Part shown: positions 28,441 through 35,713 of the stretch, piece after piece
Layout: every line of letters starts with the position of its first letter
Position numbering within the stretch: position 1 is the first letter of the stretch
Assembly: GCA_905221615.1 (NCBI GenBank)
Contig: CAJNDT010005874.1
Coordinates: 81,001-145,000, forward strand
Reading direction: 5' to 3'
Length of the DNA: 64,000 nucleotides
Source of the DNA: Symbiodinium sp. CCMP2592
Taxonomy: Eukaryota; Sar; Dinophyceae; Suessiales; Symbiodiniaceae
Made by a program: the position numbers and the translations under genes
The notes under the pieces: model-generated
The model's input: the letters and a program-made list of their open reading frames with translations, nothing else
Database searches by the model: none
What the model was told of the DNA's origin: nothing

Positions 28441-28976
28441 CCAGCGCCTGAAACCCTGAACCCTGAACCCTAAACCTTAACGAATCCCAAACTCCTAGAC
28501 CCTATAACAAACCCTAAACCCTAAGCCCTAAACCCTTCCAAAGGGGGGTCGGTCCAGATTCGACCCAAAACTTAATTTTTTATACAAACTTTAGTACTGG
28601 AGATGCCTCTTTTGAGCTAGGGTCCAATCCCCGATTCGGCGGTTCACCCTAGCAGCCCCCCCCAATAATCAAGGTATAGTAGAATAGTAGTACAGTAGTA
28701 GTATAATGCTAGTGCAGTAGTACAATAGTAATACAACAGTAGTACAGTGGTAGTAGTACAATAATAGCACAATAGTAGTACAGTAGTAGTACGATTATAG
28801 TACCATAGTACAATAATAGTACAGTAGTAGTACAGTAGTAGTACAATAATAGTGCAGTAGTACAATAGTAATACAACAGTAGTACAGTGGTAGTACAATA
28901 GTAGTACAGTAGTAGTACCACAGTAGTACAGTAGTACAGTAGTAATACAGTAATAGTACAGAAATAGTACCAATAA
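28441..28976 (+). mobile_element. internally deleted LINE copy (ends only)
   Basis: Bases 28,441-28,484 match the LINE 5' end (29,027-29,070) at 40 of 44 positions. Bases 28,485-28,703 match the LINE 3' end (35,481-35,699) at about 214 of 219 positions without gaps. All coding sequence between is missing. The junction falls exactly where the full element has a 13-bp direct repeat, AAACCCTAAAGAA (29,058-29,070 and 35,468-35,480). The copy ends in a long (AGTAGTAC)-type tail to about 28,976. Confidence 0.8.
28678..28976. repeat. AGT/AGTAC repeat tail
   Basis: Degenerate AGT-AGTAC array of about 300 bp with an internal duplication: a stretch starting AGTGCAGTAGTACAATAGTA occurs near 28,711 and again near 28,853. 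A much shorter tail of the same type ends the full LINE (35,676-35,713). Confidence 0.85.
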
Positions 28977-29122
28977 GCAAAGCATAAAGCCAGTGAGTAC
29001 ATTCCCCCAATAAGCAAAGCATAAAGCCAGCGCCTGAAACCCTAAACCCCGAACCCTAAACCCTAAAGAAAGGCGCTTCGGCTGCAAGTGCATGTTTGCA
29101 AGTTGTTTTGTCAGGACCTCCT

Positions 29123-32100
29123 GACCACACCGCCGCACCTAAAGGGTTCGGCCGTATCACTTCGGCTCGTTGCCGCCATGTCGTCCCAGCCTGGTTCAGG
29201 ATCCACACCGCAGGGCTTCGCCACCAATACTCTGGCAACGCAACAGTTTCTGGAGCAGCGTGCTACATATCAAACCGCGGAGTACAAGGCGGTTCAGGGC
29301 GCTTTTTTCGGCCCGCCGCGGGTCAAGCGTACTGCACCCACTCCGGTGCAAAGCGGCTTGACCACACCGCAGGAAGACTCCGTGGCAGATGAGGTTATGA
29401 GGGAGGCTGAGGAGCACGCAGAGCCACCGGAAGAGCGTAATTTGCTTACGCCTTTTTCTCTGCAGGACCAGGCCGCCTTGGAAGTTACCTTAGGCAGCTT
29501 GGGAGTCAACATCAACGACCAAAACGCCGTCCAGGCCTGGGGCCAAAGGCAGCCAACCAACAATGCCGAGATCTTCAACATGGTTCGTGCATACCATGAA
29601 AAAGTGATCCGGCCAGAGTACTACTCTTTGGTTTGCCAGCTGGAAGCGGGCCTGAAGGCAGTAGATGATCGCTGCTTTCAGTCAAAAAGGAGGTCGCATG
29701 GATGGCTTCGGAGAACAGGCTTTTGCAGAAACATGCCTGTGGTCTCCAGCTCTTGACCACAGGATGGCCGAATGCTCTGAAGCCTGCAGAACGAGTGTAT
29801 ATGATCTCGTGGATGGTTTCGCAAGTCCCTTCCTTGGTGACCTTTCTGAAGATGAGGGGCTATGTCTCCGACCACAACGCCTCGGAGCTGGAAAGGCACA
29901 TGAACGTTTTCGCCCAAGAACCGACCACAGTGCCTCAGTCGGAGGGGTTCTATTCCAGCATGACCTTTCTCAGCTTTAAGAGTTGGGACACGCGGTCTGC
30001 TTTTTTGAACCACTACGGTGGAAGTTCCGGGGTGCCAGTCTATAAGGACGAGAGCACCCCCATTCACAACAAGCATCTGAAGGTGGCACCTTGCAGTCCG
30101 CAGTGGCAGCGCAAGCTAGAGGCGCCGTTGCGTGTTATTTTAAATTGTGTGAACAAACACCCGGAACACAACGCCTCCTCCCGTCTCACCATTTTGTGGA
30201 AGACCCTCACGATTCTGGCTCCTCAGCAAGACGCTGAATTTCACGAGGACCAGACCGCCTGGGCAAGGCTTCACTATGGCCAGGAGGCAGGCGAGTTTGT
30301 TTGCAGGCTTGAGGTTGTTCCGGCTCTCCTCACAATTTTGAATGGCCCACCTTCGGAGTCCGATTCCAAGACCACATCGCTTTGGGAAGAGCAGTGGTAC
30401 CAAACGATGTGGGGGAATCATGCTGAGCTCGATCGAATGGATGCCGAAGCCTTTTCGAGTGCCAAAAAGGATGCAGTCCTTTCTGGAAAGGGCCTTCAGA
30501 AAGGAAAGGGCTAAAGGCACTGGTCTTCGGCCGCGGTGCATACTAGTGCTTACTCTCCGTATCCATTCGAGCTGCATTTTCAAGTTGTGGAAGCGGTCTA
30601 TTTTTCATGGGATGAGTTCTGTGATAAGTACAGAAAAGAAGACCGCAAGGTGGGTGACTACGAAGTGGCCACTGTACAGGGCCGCCCACCAGTGGGGATA
30701 GGGGCTGAGCTCCGATCCGACCACACCGCCACGGACTTTGCAAGTTTCGGCGCCACGCCAGCGGCTTCCACAGCCACGCCGGCGCAAGCCCCAGCCCCGA
30801 CCACACCGCAGACAAAGGGTGGGAAGGGTAAAGGATCCTGAAGTTTTGGTTCCCGAATTTTCGTGGCCCCGCTCGGCCCACAACGCCTTTGCCTGCAGGC
30901 TTTTGGGTTGAGCTTTCCCGACAAGGAGCTTGCAGCACCTTTTGAAATTTTTGAGTGCTCGCCCTTGTCCTGCAATCGGGCTTCGTGGTACTTTGGGAAA
31001 ATCCCGGAGGACCACACCGCCCCTCTCTCCGAATTTGCATGTTTCTCAGGTCTCGATTACAACGCCCTAGGCTCACCCGATAGCCCAAATCAGCTTACTT
31101 CCAAAAAGCGAAATAAGCTTATGCATATAGTCAACGGTAACACTGTCCTTTCACTAGCAGATCTTATCCCGAGCAACAGAACCACAATCTCGATAGCAAA
31201 GCTTCTGGAACAGAGACCTCAGGAATCCCAGTCGCAAGCGCAAGGTTACAGTAGAAGTTTCTTGCTGCAGTGCCGACAGACAAAAGAAGAAGGGTCGTGT
31301 CCGTACGTACCGATCACAACGCAAGCTTTCACCCCCAACAAGCCCAAGCCCTCCCGAACAGGTAGGCGAATTAAAATCAGAACGCGCGATGGAGTAGTTG
31401 TGATTTCTAAGAAACCACGACCACACCGCCTAAATTCAGTAATTCAGCTCCCAATTAATTCACACACACGCCGAAAACCGCCTCCACGAGGCGCGCCGGG
31501 ACCTCCCCCAGGGAGGGACGAAGAGTTTAACCCGAACAAGACGCGGGCACAAACCTCCGAGCGGGGTCCGGGACGCGCGGTGCGCCGCAGGGCGTATCGC
31601 CGCTGGATGCGAGGAGGTACAAAGGTACAGGTGAAGGAGCCGGGCCCTCCCCACCTTGCCCCGTCTCAGCCCCAACACGCCGCCCTTACCAGGGCCCAAT
31701 GGTTCAAGCAAAACATTCACTGGCAGGACCAGTTGAAAAGAAATAAAAAGAAAAAGTCGGTCAAGCATCCGACCACACCGCCTCTCCCGTATGATAGTAA
31801 GATAAAGGTAGGTTCGATCAATGTTCAGGGTTTCGCGGACACCCTAAAGCTTAAGAACGCCATTCTTATGATGCAGGAGCATAAGCTTGATGTTCTTATG
31901 TTATCCGAAACTAAAACCACGTCTTACTATTCGTATCAGTCAGAAAAGCATTTGGTGATACTTTCGGGCAACACAAAGGACAGGTATGCAGGAGTGGGTG
32001 CAATCATTGCGCCGCATCTTCGACCACACCTTTTAGATGTGTTGCAGGTTTCTACTAGATTGCTTCATTTGACTTTTCGGAAAAAGGGCGGTAACATTCA

Positions 32101-35100
32101 CATTGTAGGAGCATATGCCCCACACTCAGGACTGGAATATGAAGAGGTACGGGTCCCATTTTGGGATAGCCTCGAGGAACACATTGCCAAAATTCCCCAA
32201 CCCGAACCGGTCTATCTAGTAGGCGATTTCAATGTTAGGTTTCAGGCCCAACATGCTAATGATGAAGGCGTCACAGGTCCATTTACGTACGGTAAAGGTT
32301 CTAGGTTCATTGACCACAACGCGCAGTCCAACAGATCGCTGTGTGTTCGAACCATGCAACTTCTAGGTATGGTGGAGGCGGCCTCTTGGATCACGCCTAA
32401 CCCCATCCATCACATCACCTACAAAGATAAAGCAGCTCCACCCCCGGACTGGTCACAGTTTGTATTGGACCCTCTCCCCATGCAACAGATATACACCATG
32501 CTGCACCGTAAACTGGACCCTGACAAGGATCTTGCTCTTTCCACGGCAGCTACGGTAAGATCTTTTCTGGATCTCCCGGACCTACTTCCCCCACCCAAGA
32601 CAACACCGCAGATTGACCCGCTTCGTTTTCAGAGGTTGGATCATTTGTTCGTTCGAAAACAATGGCTTAATTCTGTACACCAATGCAGATCCAAGCTATA
32701 CACGGGTTTTCCCACGGATCACTACCTGGTGGTTTCGGAGATTAAGGTTCGCCTAGCAGCCAAACCACAACGCCCCCCTCGCACCCCAAAGCTTGAGCTA
32801 CACAATCCTACAGAACAGGAAAAACAGGAGTTTAACGCCATCTTCGGAGAACTTATACAGGAAAACCCCCCAGAACGAAACCTTCCCCCTCCAGACCACA
32901 CCGCTCCAATACACTACTTTACGGATGGATCAGGTTCTTCGGGTAGATGTTCTAAACACACCTCAGCCGGATGGGGTTGGTGTAGGCGTACTTCAGAAGG
33001 ATGGGAAGATGCTTACGGACCTGTAATCACAGACCCCGATCACAACGCGTATAGGGGAGCAGGCGTAGGCTCAAATAACACTGGGGAGGTATCAGCTATC
33101 GTGGAGGCTTTGCTCCACGCCCACCAACACTCGTATCACAACGTTCATATCCACACCGACAGCCAATGGTCCAAGAACGTCATCACAGGCAAGTGGCGGG
33201 CGCAACGCAACAAAACGCTTGTGAACATGGCGAAACACCTTTGCAAAATCGCGCCCATGCGTGTCACCTTCCATTGGATCAGAGCGCACAAAGGCAACGA
33301 AGGCAACGAGAGAGCGGATAAGCTCTCTAATCAGGGACGCAAGGCTAAGGACCGTCAAGGCACCACAGCGCAGCAACCAGAAGTCACCACCACCACAACG
33401 CCAATCCGGGAGGACGCTTTTACAGAGGTCCTAAAAGAAGCGGCTGCGCAAACCTTTGCAAACGAAACGCGCAGACGACGCACGCCGTGGATCACGGAAT
33501 CTACCCTCAACCTTCTACAGGACGCACGTGCTGCGGAAGCGCAGGGAGACCACAACGCAAAGCACAAGCGCAACGTTGCCAAACGATCCGCAAGAAAAGA
33601 CAAAGTTAAGTGGGTTCACGATCAATTAGTGGAGGACCCAAGCGCAGAACACAGAGGATTATGGAGCACAGTCCGTCGCCAGAAGGCAGGCTTTAGAGGC
33701 AAAAAATCTCACCTTGTGGTGGATAATAAACCAGTCCCCTGGAGCAAGACTCACCAAGCCTTTCGAGACCATCTGCAGAATACCCAATGGGCGGCACACG
33801 AGGACGCCACAGAAAGATCAAAAGCCTTAAATTCAAAACGCGCACTACGCCCTCCTTCACCTGACGAGTCTCCCTTCTTACTTGAGGACCTCCAATCAGC
33901 GATCAACAAGCTCAGGAAGCGCAAGGCACCAGGACCAGACCAAACCGCCAACGAACTCTTTCTTCTCTTAGACGATGAGAATCAAAAACTACTTCTAGAA
34001 TTTTACAACAAGATATGGGACGAGGAAGTTCCAGAAGAATGGAAAGAGGCCATAGTGGTTTCAATCTACAAAGGCAAAGGCAAGGACACTGACCCTGCCA
34101 ATTATCGCCCCATCTCACTTCTCAACACAATCTACAAAATCTTCGCCGCAATGTTGCAAACCAGACTTGCCACAACTCACGAGAAGAACTTGCGCAGTAC
34201 ACAGTATGGTTTCAGATCACACCGCGGAACGCAACAACCACTATTTGTTTTGAGACGATCAATGGAATGGGCGGAAATGACCAACAATCCCTTATATTAC
34301 CTTTTTCTGGATTGGAAACAAGCATTCGACTCACTTGACCACAACGCCATGTTGATTGCTTTGCAGCGCTTCGGGTTGCCCAACAAATCTCTAGCAGTAA
34401 TCTCCTCGATTTATAAGGATCCCACCTTTATCACCAAAGGAATTGACGACCACAACGCCAAAGGTAAGGTAGGAGCGGGAATTCGGCAGGGATGCCCCCT
34501 CAGCCCGTATTTGTTCATCATGGTACTTACAGTAATTTTGGAAGATGTTGATTGGGATCTGGCAAGTAGAGGAATAGCTAGGAATACTTGGTCGGCCACC
34601 CGCCCCACCTCAGATCTAGAGTATGCGGACGATACGCTTCTTATCGCCAGGACCACAACGCAACTCTCAGAAATCTTGCACTCGCTGGAAAGATGTTCTA
34701 GGCTCCATGGGATGCATTTGAATAAAGAAAAAACAGAACTTCTCGTGGATCCTCGAAGACCACAACCCAAACTTACTTTCGAAAACGGCGAAACAGTTCC
34801 GACCACAACGCAAATTAAGTACTTAGGATCGATGATAGCCTGGGAAAAACCTTTTGAAGCCGCATTTAGACATAGAGCAGCGGTAGCAGAAACCAGCTAC
34901 AAGAAACTCCGGCTTGTTTGGAACAGCTCCTTGCCTCGTAAGACCAAACTCCGCATATTCCAGTCTGTCTTTATCCCCACCTTAACCTACGGCCTCGACA
35001 CTCTCACCCTCACAGACAAGCAAATAGACAGAGTAGATGCCTACTACTTCCGATTCCTGCGACGAGTGGTTAATATCAAAGCATCATACTACTCCAGAAT

Positions 35101-35315
35101 CTCTAACCAAACAGTTTGGAGAACAGCCAACAACCCGAGAAAACCCTCAAGCTTCCTCCACAACGCCCAGCTTAAGCTCCTGCAGACACTCTACGCTAGC
35201 GACATTTCAGATCCATTCCACAATGTAGTGTTTACCGCTGCTTACAAGGATAGAATAGTCGTTACCGGCAGACGTAGAGGGATGAAAATGCCTTATTGGA
35301 TCGAGATCACAACGC
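29123..35315 (+). repeat. dispersed sense-strand 11-mer GAYCACAMCGC, 19 exact copies
   Basis: Exact copies begin at 29,123, 29,360, 29,870, 30,719, 30,799, 31,010, 31,312, 31,419, 31,771, 32,312, 32,894, 33,038, 33,548, 34,215, 34,337, 34,448, 34,651, 34,801 and 35,305. One- or two-base variants begin at about 29,517, 29,923, 30,164, 30,248, 30,370, 30,876, 32,599, 32,763, 33,391, 33,938 and 34,758. Nine exact copies read as D-H-(T/N)-A, seven as x-T-T-(P/T/S), two as P-H-R or S-H-R, and one is in the untranslated leader. I found none in the antisense direction within the element. Confidence 0.85.
29178..30841 (+). pseudogene. LINE ORF1 (gag-like), one frameshift and one stop
   Basis: The start ATG at 29,178 follows GCCGCC. 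The first part (to about 29,684) is polar and Glu-rich. Near 29,682-29,687 (TCAAAAAGG) the sense moves by -1, consistent with loss of one base, and continues VKKEVAWMASENRLLQKHAC, ERVYMISWMVSQVPSLVTFL, YSSMTFLSFKSWDTRSAFLN and LKVAPCSPQWQRKLEAPLRV. TAA at 30,512-30,514 interrupts, but the same frame resumes (YPFELHFQVVEAVYFSWDEF) with a Pro/Thr/Ala tail ending GGKGKG at TGA 30,839-30,841. Rejoined length would be about 550 residues. There is no CCHC knuckle, unlike many LINE ORF1 proteins. The likely role is RNA binding in the RNP, inferred only from position. Confidence 0.65.
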
Positions 35316-35461
35316 AAAGGCATTTTAAGAACCATTGGACCCAAAACCCTGGTAAAGGAATTCTAGGACCACACCTGGTATATGCCTCCATTAATCGAGA
35401 CCTGAAGAGTTCCTTTGAGCGAGCGCCGAAGCGCGCTGCGGAAAAGCGCGCAGGGCACTAG
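30863..35461 (+). CDS. LINE ORF2: AP endonuclease, RNase H, reverse transcriptase
   Basis: A 1532-codon open frame. Residues 1-310 are a basic, Pro-rich extension. An exonuclease-endonuclease-phosphatase domain (about 315-625) has N320 in SINVQG, E349 in SETKT, D455/N457 in GDFNV and D619/H620 in TDHYL. RNase H (about 683-830) has D688, E742, D766 and D819, with WIRAHKGN. Reverse transcriptase (about 990-1290) has KAPGPD, D1150 in FLDWKQAFDS, RQGCPLSPYLF and Y-A-D1256-D1257. All catalytic residues are present, so the protein looks functional for target-primed reverse transcription. The open frame begins at a GTG; the first ATG is at 31,121 (codon 87). It lies in the same frame as the end of ORF1, separated by one TGA. 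RNase H before RT is unusual; most LINEs with RNase H carry it after RT. Confidence 0.95.
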   Translation: MAPLGPQRLCLQAFGLSFPDKELAAPFEIFECSPLSCNRASWYFGKIPEDHTAPLSEFACFSGLDYNALGSPDSPNQLTSKKRNKLMHIVNGNTVLSLADLIPSNRTTISIAKLLEQRPQESQSQAQGYSRSFLLQCRQTKEEGSCPYVPITTQAFTPNKPKPSRTGRRIKIRTRDGVVVISKKPRPHRLNSVIQLPINSHTRRKPPPRGAPGPPPGRDEEFNPNKTRAQTSERGPGRAVRRRAYRRWMRGGTKVQVKEPGPPHLAPSQPQHAALTRAQWFKQNIHWQDQLKRNKKKKSVKHPTTPPLPYDSKIKVGSINVQGFADTLKLKNAILMMQEHKLDVLMLSETKTTSYYSYQSEKHLVILSGNTKDRYAGVGAIIAPHLRPHLLDVLQVSTRLLHLTFRKKGGNIHIVGAYAPHSGLEYEEVRVPFWDSLEEHIAKIPQPEPVYLVGDFNVRFQAQHANDEGVTGPFTYGKGSRFIDHNAQSNRSLCVRTMQLLGMVEAASWITPNPIHHITYKDKAAPPPDWSQFVLDPLPMQQIYTMLHRKLDPDKDLALSTAATVRSFLDLPDLLPPPKTTPQIDPLRFQRLDHLFVRKQWLNSVHQCRSKLYTGFPTDHYLVVSEIKVRLAAKPQRPPRTPKLELHNPTEQEKQEFNAIFGELIQENPPERNLPPPDHTAPIHYFTDGSGSSGRCSKHTSAGWGWCRRTSEGWEDAYGPVITDPDHNAYRGAGVGSNNTGEVSAIVEALLHAHQHSYHNVHIHTDSQWSKNVITGKWRAQRNKTLVNMAKHLCKIAPMRVTFHWIRAHKGNEGNERADKLSNQGRKAKDRQGTTAQQPEVTTTTTPIREDAFTEVLKEAAAQTFANETRRRRTPWITESTLNLLQDARAAEAQGDHNAKHKRNVAKRSARKDKVKWVHDQLVEDPSAEHRGLWSTVRRQKAGFRGKKSHLVVDNKPVPWSKTHQAFRDHLQNTQWAAHEDATERSKALNSKRALRPPSPDESPFLLEDLQSAINKLRKRKAPGPDQTANELFLLLDDENQKLLLEFYNKIWDEEVPEEWKEAIVVSIYKGKGKDTDPANYRPISLLNTIYKIFAAMLQTRLATTHEKNLRSTQYGFRSHRGTQQPLFVLRRSMEWAEMTNNPLYYLFLDWKQAFDSLDHNAMLIALQRFGLPNKSLAVISSIYKDPTFITKGIDDHNAKGKVGAGIRQGCPLSPYLFIMVLTVILEDVDWDLASRGIARNTWSATRPTSDLEYADDTLLIARTTTQLSEILHSLERCSRLHGMHLNKEKTELLVDPRRPQPKLTFENGETVPTTTQIKYLGSMIAWEKPFEAAFRHRAAVAETSYKKLRLVWNSSLPRKTKLRIFQSVFIPTLTYGLDTLTLTDKQIDRVDAYYFRFLRRVVNIKASYYSRISNQTVWRTANNPRKPSSFLHNAQLKLLQTLYASDISDPFHNVVFTAAYKDRIVVTGRRRGMKMPYWIEITTQRHFKNHWTQNPGKGILGPHLVYASINRDLKSSFERAPKRAAEKRAGH

Positions 35462-35480
35462 CAAAAAAAACCCTAAAGAA

Positions 35481-35713
35481 TCCTACACTCCTAAACCCTA
35501 TAACAAACCCTGAACCCTAAGCCCTAAACCCTTCCAAAGGGGGGTCGGTCCAGATTCGACCCAAAACTTAATTTTTTATACAAACTTTAGTACTGGAGAG
35601 GCCTCTTTTGAGCTAGGGTCCAATCCCCGATTCGGCGGTTCACCCTAGCAGCCCCCCCCAATAATCAAGGTATAGTAGAATAGTAGTACAGTAGTAGTAC
35701 AGTAGTAGTACAG
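35481..35713 (+). repeat. LINE 3' end, direct repeat of 28,485-28,703
   Basis: The 219-bp ungapped match to the deleted copy includes CCCTAAGCCCTAAACCCTTC, a GGGGGGTCGGTCC box and a C8 run. The AGT-AGTAC tail follows. Confidence 0.9.

Follow-up and report, generated by a model that had tools for sequence, protein, structure and literature searches.

Single-stranded RNA viruses carry multiple dispersed packaging signals, mostly stem-loops. The DNA uptake sequences of Neisseriaceae and Pasteurellaceae mark whole host genomes in either orientation and function as DNA. CAR-E elements, proposed for mammalian mRNAs that lack introns, are located in coding regions. How the proteins of a long interspersed nuclear element (LINE) select the RNA that encodes them (cis-preference) is an old question. 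Passages of PMC5940361 describe human LINE-1 (L1) ORF1p, the product of the first open reading frame (ORF), as consisting of a coiled coil, an RRM, and a C-terminal domain; this protein trimerizes and packages L1 RNA. For Symbiodinium, a figure legend in PMC5890265 names Exo_endo_phos, RVT_1, and RNase_H for LINE and DIRS elements together. Here, we describe a LINE from Symbiodinium sp. CCMP2592 in which the 11-nucleotide (nt) word GAYCACAMCGC recurs across the leader, ORF1, and ORF2. The element lies in a stretch of 64,000 nt (contig CAJNDT010005874.1, positions 81,001 to 145,000), referred to below as the window, and its main features are as follows.

29071-35469, + strand: LINE (non-long terminal repeat [non-LTR] retrotransposon), ∼6.4 kb; ends good to a few bases, set against a 98% identical copy (L032)
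29178-30841, + strand: ORF1 region (RRM protein), disrupted in the window copy, which has one frame change plus an in-frame stop
29702-30514, + strand: ORF1 piece P0003, with an RRM fold predicted at about model residues 12-134
30863-35461, + strand: ORF2, 1532 amino acids (aa), intact, with 14 exact copies of the word

The 5' end was placed just behind a CCCTAAA tract and the 3' end at an A-run directly after the ORF2 stop codon. By Pfam, ORF2 encodes an APE-like endonuclease (EN; PF03372, aa 318-601), an RNase H (PF00075, aa 685-825), and a reverse transcriptase (RT; PF00078, aa 1076-1323), in that order. With PF00078 and PF03372 in one 1532-aa ORF, the element is an APE-type non-LTR retrotransposon.

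A dispersed sense-strand word

The window contains 19 exact matches to GAYCACAMCGC, the number originally reported, all on the + strand between 29123 and 35315 and all within the LINE; none occurs elsewhere in the window. Counts within the element (range 29061-35465) gave 19 exact copies and 11 with a single mismatch (30 in all; the latter number is close to the dozen near-copies originally noted), and at up to two mismatches, 41 sense copies compare with 1 antisense copy. The random expectation had been put at well below one, and dinucleotide shuffles of the window (n = 100) agreed, with a mean of 0.10 and a maximum of 1. The copies are spread over the leader, ORF1, and ORF2 and fall in all three codon frames.

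29123-29133, + strand: motif copy, leader upstream of ORF1
29360-29370, + strand: motif copy, ORF1, TTP frame
29870-29880, + strand: motif copy, ORF1, DHNA
30719-30729, + strand: motif copy, 3' part of ORF1, DHTA
30799-30809, + strand: motif copy, 3' part of ORF1, TTP; lost in L032
31010-31020, + strand: motif copy, ORF2, DHTA
31312-31322, + strand: motif copy, ORF2, ITTQ
31419-31429, + strand: motif copy, ORF2, PHR frame
31771-31781, + strand: motif copy, ORF2, TTPP
32312-32322, + strand: motif copy, EN, DHNA
32599-32609, + strand: one-mismatch copy, ORF2; exact motif in L032
32894-32904, + strand: motif copy, just upstream of the RNase H domain, DHTA
33038-33048, + strand: motif copy, RNase H, DHNA
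33548-33558, + strand: motif copy, ORF2, DHNA
34215-34225, + strand: motif copy, RT, GFRSHRG
34337-34347, + strand: motif copy, RT, FDSLDHNAM; N and T alternate among relatives
34448-34458, + strand: motif copy, RT, DHNA
34651-34661, + strand: motif copy, RT, RTTTQ
34801-34811, + strand: motif copy, RT, PTTTQ
35305-35315, + strand: motif copy, C-terminal part of ORF2, EITTQ

The frame tally (9 + 7 + 2 + 1 = 19) is also as first given. ORF2 holds 7 DH[NT]A, 5 xTT[TP]x, and 2 PHR/SHR copies; the other five comprise one in the leader (29123), two read as TTP (29360 and 30799), and two read as DH[NT]A (29870 and 30719). Copies do lie inside catalytic domains, as had been noted for FDSLDHNAM and GFRSHRG, and these domains include the EN, RNase H, and RT. 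Copies with at most one mismatch are spaced more evenly than random (coefficient of variation, 0.63 versus 0.95; nominal P = 0.003), with P = 0.075 for evenness of the exact copies alone. Special RNA accessibility at the motif sites was considered and rejected, as it was not significant.

The word is constrained as nucleotides

Codon-shuffled controls had been proposed as a check, and they set the element clearly apart. Synonymous shuffles of ORF2 that keep the protein fixed (n = 5000) yielded a mean of 3.03 and a maximum of 9 copies, versus 14 observed. The protein predicts 0.05 and 0.04 copies in frames 1 and 2, where 2 and 5 were observed; of the 7 copies in frame 0, about 2.8 are explained by the DH[NT]A peptide. 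The word was also recovered de novo from relatives. A protein search retrieved 114 of these, and in a three-frame back-translation scan of 61 ORF2 proteins (the window's and those of 60 relatives), GACCACACC ranked first among 262144 9-mers. Expectation maximization (EM) with hidden codons, applied to four subclades separately, returned GACCACA[AC]CGC, GACCACAAC[GT]C, GACCACACCGC, and GACCACACC[GT]C; the motif and the leading words of the respective group were among the seeds, and the solution for the third subclade was also reached from an unrelated seed. Among 20 ORF1 homologues, the same word was the best EM solution of 40 random starts, while ranking by 9-mer likelihood placed a Gly-Lys tail word first and motif words 9th and 10th. 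A repeated peptide or chance composition could account for the frame-0 share given above; it is refuted by the shuffles and the occurrence in three frames, together with the first rank among 262144 words, and its probability is negligible.

Motif sites were then compared between copies of the element, using gap-free sites only (11 of the 14 window ORF2 sites for L041 and 10 for L040) and nine chosen pairs. Free synonymous change at these sites, which would speak against a code, was not what the divergent copies showed. Relative to L041, which is 71.7% identical to the window outside the motif, 97/99 fixed motif positions are unchanged, and where the two degenerate positions differ, the letter always (8/8) stays within Y or M. 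The corresponding values for L040 are 88/90 and 7/7; L040 and L041 are 98.6% identical to each other, so the two comparisons are not independent. For the older copy L033, a hand count over seven sites gave 60/63 fixed positions unchanged and 7/7 degenerate-site changes within Y or M (P = 7.6e-7, from rounded totals). Some changes at motif sites are nonsynonymous (H to Q, N to T), and most letters that could change silently are unchanged.

Other pairs were less marked. Fixed positions agreed at 57/63 for L042/L045, 54/63 for L043/L045, 52/63 for both L038/L049 and L042/L044, and 39/54 for the weakest pair, L043/L039 (P = 0.13); in four of these five pairs, changes at degenerate sites do not all stay within Y or M. 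Near-identical pairs were uninformative (L040/L041, 81/81; L043/L048, 72/72). Against the 98% identical L032, no depletion was found, with 3 of 102 substitutions falling in the 220 motif columns of 6462 (∼3.5 expected); one of the three removes a copy, one makes a copy, and one switches Y. Because of the codon shuffles, copy conservation, de novo rediscovery (in 61 ORF2 and 20 ORF1 proteins), and sense-only orientation, the nucleotide-level code overlaid on protein that was originally proposed stands: the motif is selected as nucleotides and not as a peptide. The element thus has many sense-strand sites kept at the nucleotide level, as in multi-site RNA packaging.

Retention of the word and turnover of its sites

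On a tree of 40 full-length proteins, the word occupies 103 distinct site positions with 244 gains or losses, whereas 59 letter-permuted motifs on the same tree reached at most 35 positions and 58 gains or losses. Therefore, the word is retained while its places turn over. Only some lost sites have a replacement within 15 columns. Three sites are long kept: positions 484, 678, and 1159 carry the word in 25, 25, and 32 of the 40 divergent proteins, respectively, and of 49 rows, 33, 37, and 37 show N or T as the third residue. Fewer rows do so at positions 726, 896, and 1196, and the sister clade differs.

Turnover is what a mutational or gene-conversion process that seeds the word without selection would produce. 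We regard such a process as very improbable, as the long-kept sites are fitted to catalytic residues, fixed letters stay in the comparisons with L040 and L041 while degenerate letters change only within Y or M, and the copies have a single orientation.

Dialects coexisting in one genome

At least 34 ORF2 matches, including the window's own, were found in the genome down to 40% identity, with 31 of 5426 candidates scored. Of the 33 non-window matches, 15 were read as DNA; L032 (C109) had already been read, and near-identical or partial matches were left out. In all 15 related ORF2 copies, the most frequent 9-mer is part of such a word, in sense orientation only. The dialect words are GACCACAACGC, GACCACACCGC, GGCTACACCGC, and GACTACTCCGC, with GGCTAAACCGC being weaker, and their counts are as follows.

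L040 and L041: GACCACACCGC, 6; GACCACAACGC, 3-4
L038 and L049: GACCACAACGC, 7 and 9
L042, L043, L044, L045, and L048: GACCACACCGC, 7-8
L039: GACCACACCGC, 5; GACCATACCGC, 3
L035: GGCTACACCGC, 8
L036: GGCTACTCCTC, 4; GACTACTCCGC, 3
L037 and L047: GACTACTCCGC, 6; equal counts suggest near-identical copies
L046: GGCTAAACCGC, 3, weak

In the window and 13 copies (L041 and L048 being left out of this test), the count of the fitting pattern, picked for each copy after its 9-mer counts were viewed, exceeded all 300 protein-preserving shuffles. The unbiased best 9-mer exceeded the shuffle maximum in 12 of 14, the exceptions being L035 (10 versus 10) and L036 (6 versus 7). The DNA upstream of ORF2, including ORF1, was read in three distant elements and one of the window's clade; the matching dialect occurs there 8, 5, 6, and 6 times in sense orientation and 0 times in antisense, and GAYCACAMCGC is absent upstream of ORF2 in the three distant elements. 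The overall consensus of the dialects is about GRYYACWMCKC. These results show that the word diverged into subfamily-specific dialects that coexist in one genome.

Protein-level word counts, which took 18 of the 61 clade proteins, gave a similar picture. Before DNA was read, the evidence for sister-clade dialects from proteins was suggestive, and the best EM solution there was often a poly-C word from proline-rich stretches. In 14 more distant LINE proteins, ten of eleven words scored 0.0 to 0.2 hits per protein, and the eleventh scored 1.1 (null, 0.72). No clear word was found in the groups P0050/P0052/P0086/P0045 and P0063/P0065/P0187. For distant single proteins (e.g., P0202 and P0214), EM returned other words, which were not counted as dialects; that of P0214 looks like a repeated peptide. 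The ORF2 proteins P0198 and P0190 (36-41% identical) have words about CCACACAGC and GATCACACC, which, from protein alone, look like further dialects.

No antisense copies of five tested patterns occur in the 15 ORF2 copies, and none of the word occurs within ORF2 at one mismatch. Pairing with an antisense copy inside ORF2 was accordingly rejected, and the lack of antisense partners also counts against a host small-RNA or chromatin system that reads the word, either for silencing or for licensing as self. Dispersed sites on the transcript would suit a guide RNA, and retention of the word by the element suggests a benefit (licensing) rather than silencing. A silencing target, however, would be expected to be lost, yet 97/99 positions are preserved, and we consider this reading improbable.

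The original prediction had also likened the word to DNA uptake sequences and Chi sites. That likeness did not hold as a genome-wide host code: in the 1.098-Gb genome, GAYCACAMCGC occurs 2098 times (998 + 1100) versus 1510 times (756 + 754) for the reversed pattern, a mild excess rather than a strong enrichment over the host genome. A general code of the host was therefore rejected. The loci cut around the first 30 listed genome hits (not a random sample) had no match among the LINE proteins tried.

Both results also weigh against a host RNA-binding protein as the reader, which would use the word, in the manner of CAR-E elements, for export, stability, or translation of an intronless LINE RNA in an intron-rich genome. 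A word that is sense-only, multicopy, and located in the coding sequence of an intronless element is in keeping with this possibility; in addition, parts of PMC5890265 describe typical Symbiodinium genes as very long with short exons, and CAR-Es are mentioned in a passage of PMC6199362 that also doubts their function. However, several dialects in one genome are not called for by a single host reader, and we consider a host reader unlikely, if less so than a small-RNA or chromatin system.

ORF1 as the candidate reader

ORF1 is open (554 aa) in L032, the 98% DNA-identical copy, and the damage to the window copy lies within 29669-30841. An RRM domain, as in L1-type ORF1 proteins, is present as a predicted fold. 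In the ORF1 protein P0119, a helix is predicted at residues 70-113 ahead of the RRM, and Foldseek placed the human L1 ORF1p trimer second for the ORF1 model, at an E value of 0.033. Four ORF1 homologues carry Symbiodinium species names, and the ORF1 of one relative (P0139) has, ahead of its MSTP start, an LLTTP that matches the leader copy of the motif.

Taken together, we lean slightly toward a multi-site, subfamily-specific RNA recognition code, with the ORF1 protein of the same element as its likeliest binder. The code itself is observed; for its reader, we infer the ORF1 protein, which is favored among the mechanisms first suggested because an RRM is predicted in ORF1 and each coexisting subfamily has a dialect of its own. 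The dispersed, roughly evenly spaced 11-nt word, running from the leader through the whole of ORF2, would act as a multi-site binding signal on the full-length RNA. The ORF1 protein, with its predicted long helix and RRM, may bind this signal and thus coat its own RNA and not that of others. Such selective coating could provide a sequence-specific cis-preference by which subfamilies are told apart. A wider proposal, which we put forward tentatively and with somewhat less confidence, is that these elements form a LINE clan with private RNA dialects. Each subfamily would spread some 10 to 30 copies of its own 11-nt word over both ORFs and encode an ORF1 protein that reads only that word; self-recognition would then replace or enforce cis-preference and isolate subfamilies from each other and from parasites.

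A reader encoded by ORF2 would equally predict a word that is element-specific and present all along the RNA. In this alternative, the RT/EN protein (ORF2p) would land on the word, or the word would serve in template jumping or priming. No special 3' clustering of the word was seen, and both copies for which two flanks were read (the window copy and L032) are surrounded by CCCTAAA arrays. These do not resemble the word, which was thus rejected as an EN target site. An ORF2p reader is improbable, to much the same degree as a small-RNA or chromatin reader or marginally less.

Insertion site, flanks, and relatives

CCCTAAA (telomere-type) tracts lie on both sides of the window copy (29040-29070 and 35471-35530) and of L032 (1340-1504 and 7912-7960). 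Because both copies are flanked in this way, the data suggest that the LINE targets telomeric or interstitial telomeric repeats; L033 lacks a CCCTAAA-type 3' flank. In the window copy and L032, the A-run stands right behind the ORF2 stop codon, leaving almost no 3' untranslated region. A 246-bp direct repeat (95% identical) also occurs on both sides of the LINE (28472-28717 and 35468-35713). It was rejected as an LTR, since it was not found in 10 kb of L032, where the flanks are CCCTAAA arrays; it is probably a host repeat carrying the telomere-like insertion site. Directly upstream of the LINE is a long microsatellite of the AGTAGTAC type (window 28640-29000). Rfam (at the gathering threshold) and ARAGORN found nothing within the window.

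RNase H sits between the EN and RT, and not behind the RT, in the same order in P0004, P0057, P0064, and P0214; it was not found in P0190. The contig L001 (JAOARK010000509.1), the one relative from a scan of genome contigs and assigned to a bacterial metagenome-assembled genome, encodes a 31% identical relative of the LINE ORF2 without the word, downstream of a TCAATTGAT-rich stretch, and is probably eukaryotic contamination. Scans of viral contigs found no relative of the element, and L034 matched none of six LINE proteins tried.

Comparison with known systems

The LINE RNA described here has a dense, heritable self-label with dialects, so recognition becomes testable by swapping dialects between coexisting subfamilies. 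It would represent a second code laid over both proteins of a cellular retrotransposon, even inside catalytic domains. The dialects would also pair RNA words with RRM proteins in a natural series, and a rule of RNA recognition could be learned from these pairs.

The packaging signals of RNA viruses share with this word their many degenerate sense-strand sites over coding sequence, read by the virus's own RNA-coating protein; here, in contrast, the word is linear and 11 nt long, the carrier is a cellular retrotransposon, and subfamilies have dialects. DNA uptake sequences are likewise short, overrepresented words in coding sequence that serve as a self-label and have related dialects. The present word differs in being concentrated in one transposon family and on the sense strand. 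We know of no dispersed RNA word for ORF1p described for L1. Human L1 resembles the element in having two ORFs and, in ORF1, an RRM behind a long helix (described in passages of PMC5940361; predicted here) and differs in that ORF2 here has its RNase H between the EN and RT. CAR-E elements resemble the word in lying within naturally intronless RNA, according to part of PMC6199362; they belong to host genes, lack element-specific dialects, and are doubted in function in that same part.

The closest described elements by host are SymbioLINE and SymbioLINE-Dnmt, which passages of PMC5890265 present as LINEs of this kind of host that lie in intronless genes and have their RT in an ORF2 preceded by ORF1. 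The domains of the element fit SymbioLINE, and four ORF1 homologues bear Symbiodinium names, which makes the element a candidate SymbioLINE by description. SymbioLINE-Dnmt carries a DNMT in ORF1, whereas Pfam assigned no family, DNMT included, to P0002, P0003, or P0119; the element here, with a predicted RRM instead, is thus not a SymbioLINE-Dnmt. According to a legend in PMC5890265, SymbioLINE-Dnmt is without poly-A tails, whereas this element ends in a short A-run, and the SymbioLINE passages of that paper mention no repeated word. The original statement that no such LINE is described is consistent with the open-access papers listed in literature searches, none of which points to a word of this kind in a LINE by title or start of abstract. 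The likely mechanism is similar to that of multi-site packaging signals in RNA viruses, and the dialects are comparable with those of DNA uptake sequences.

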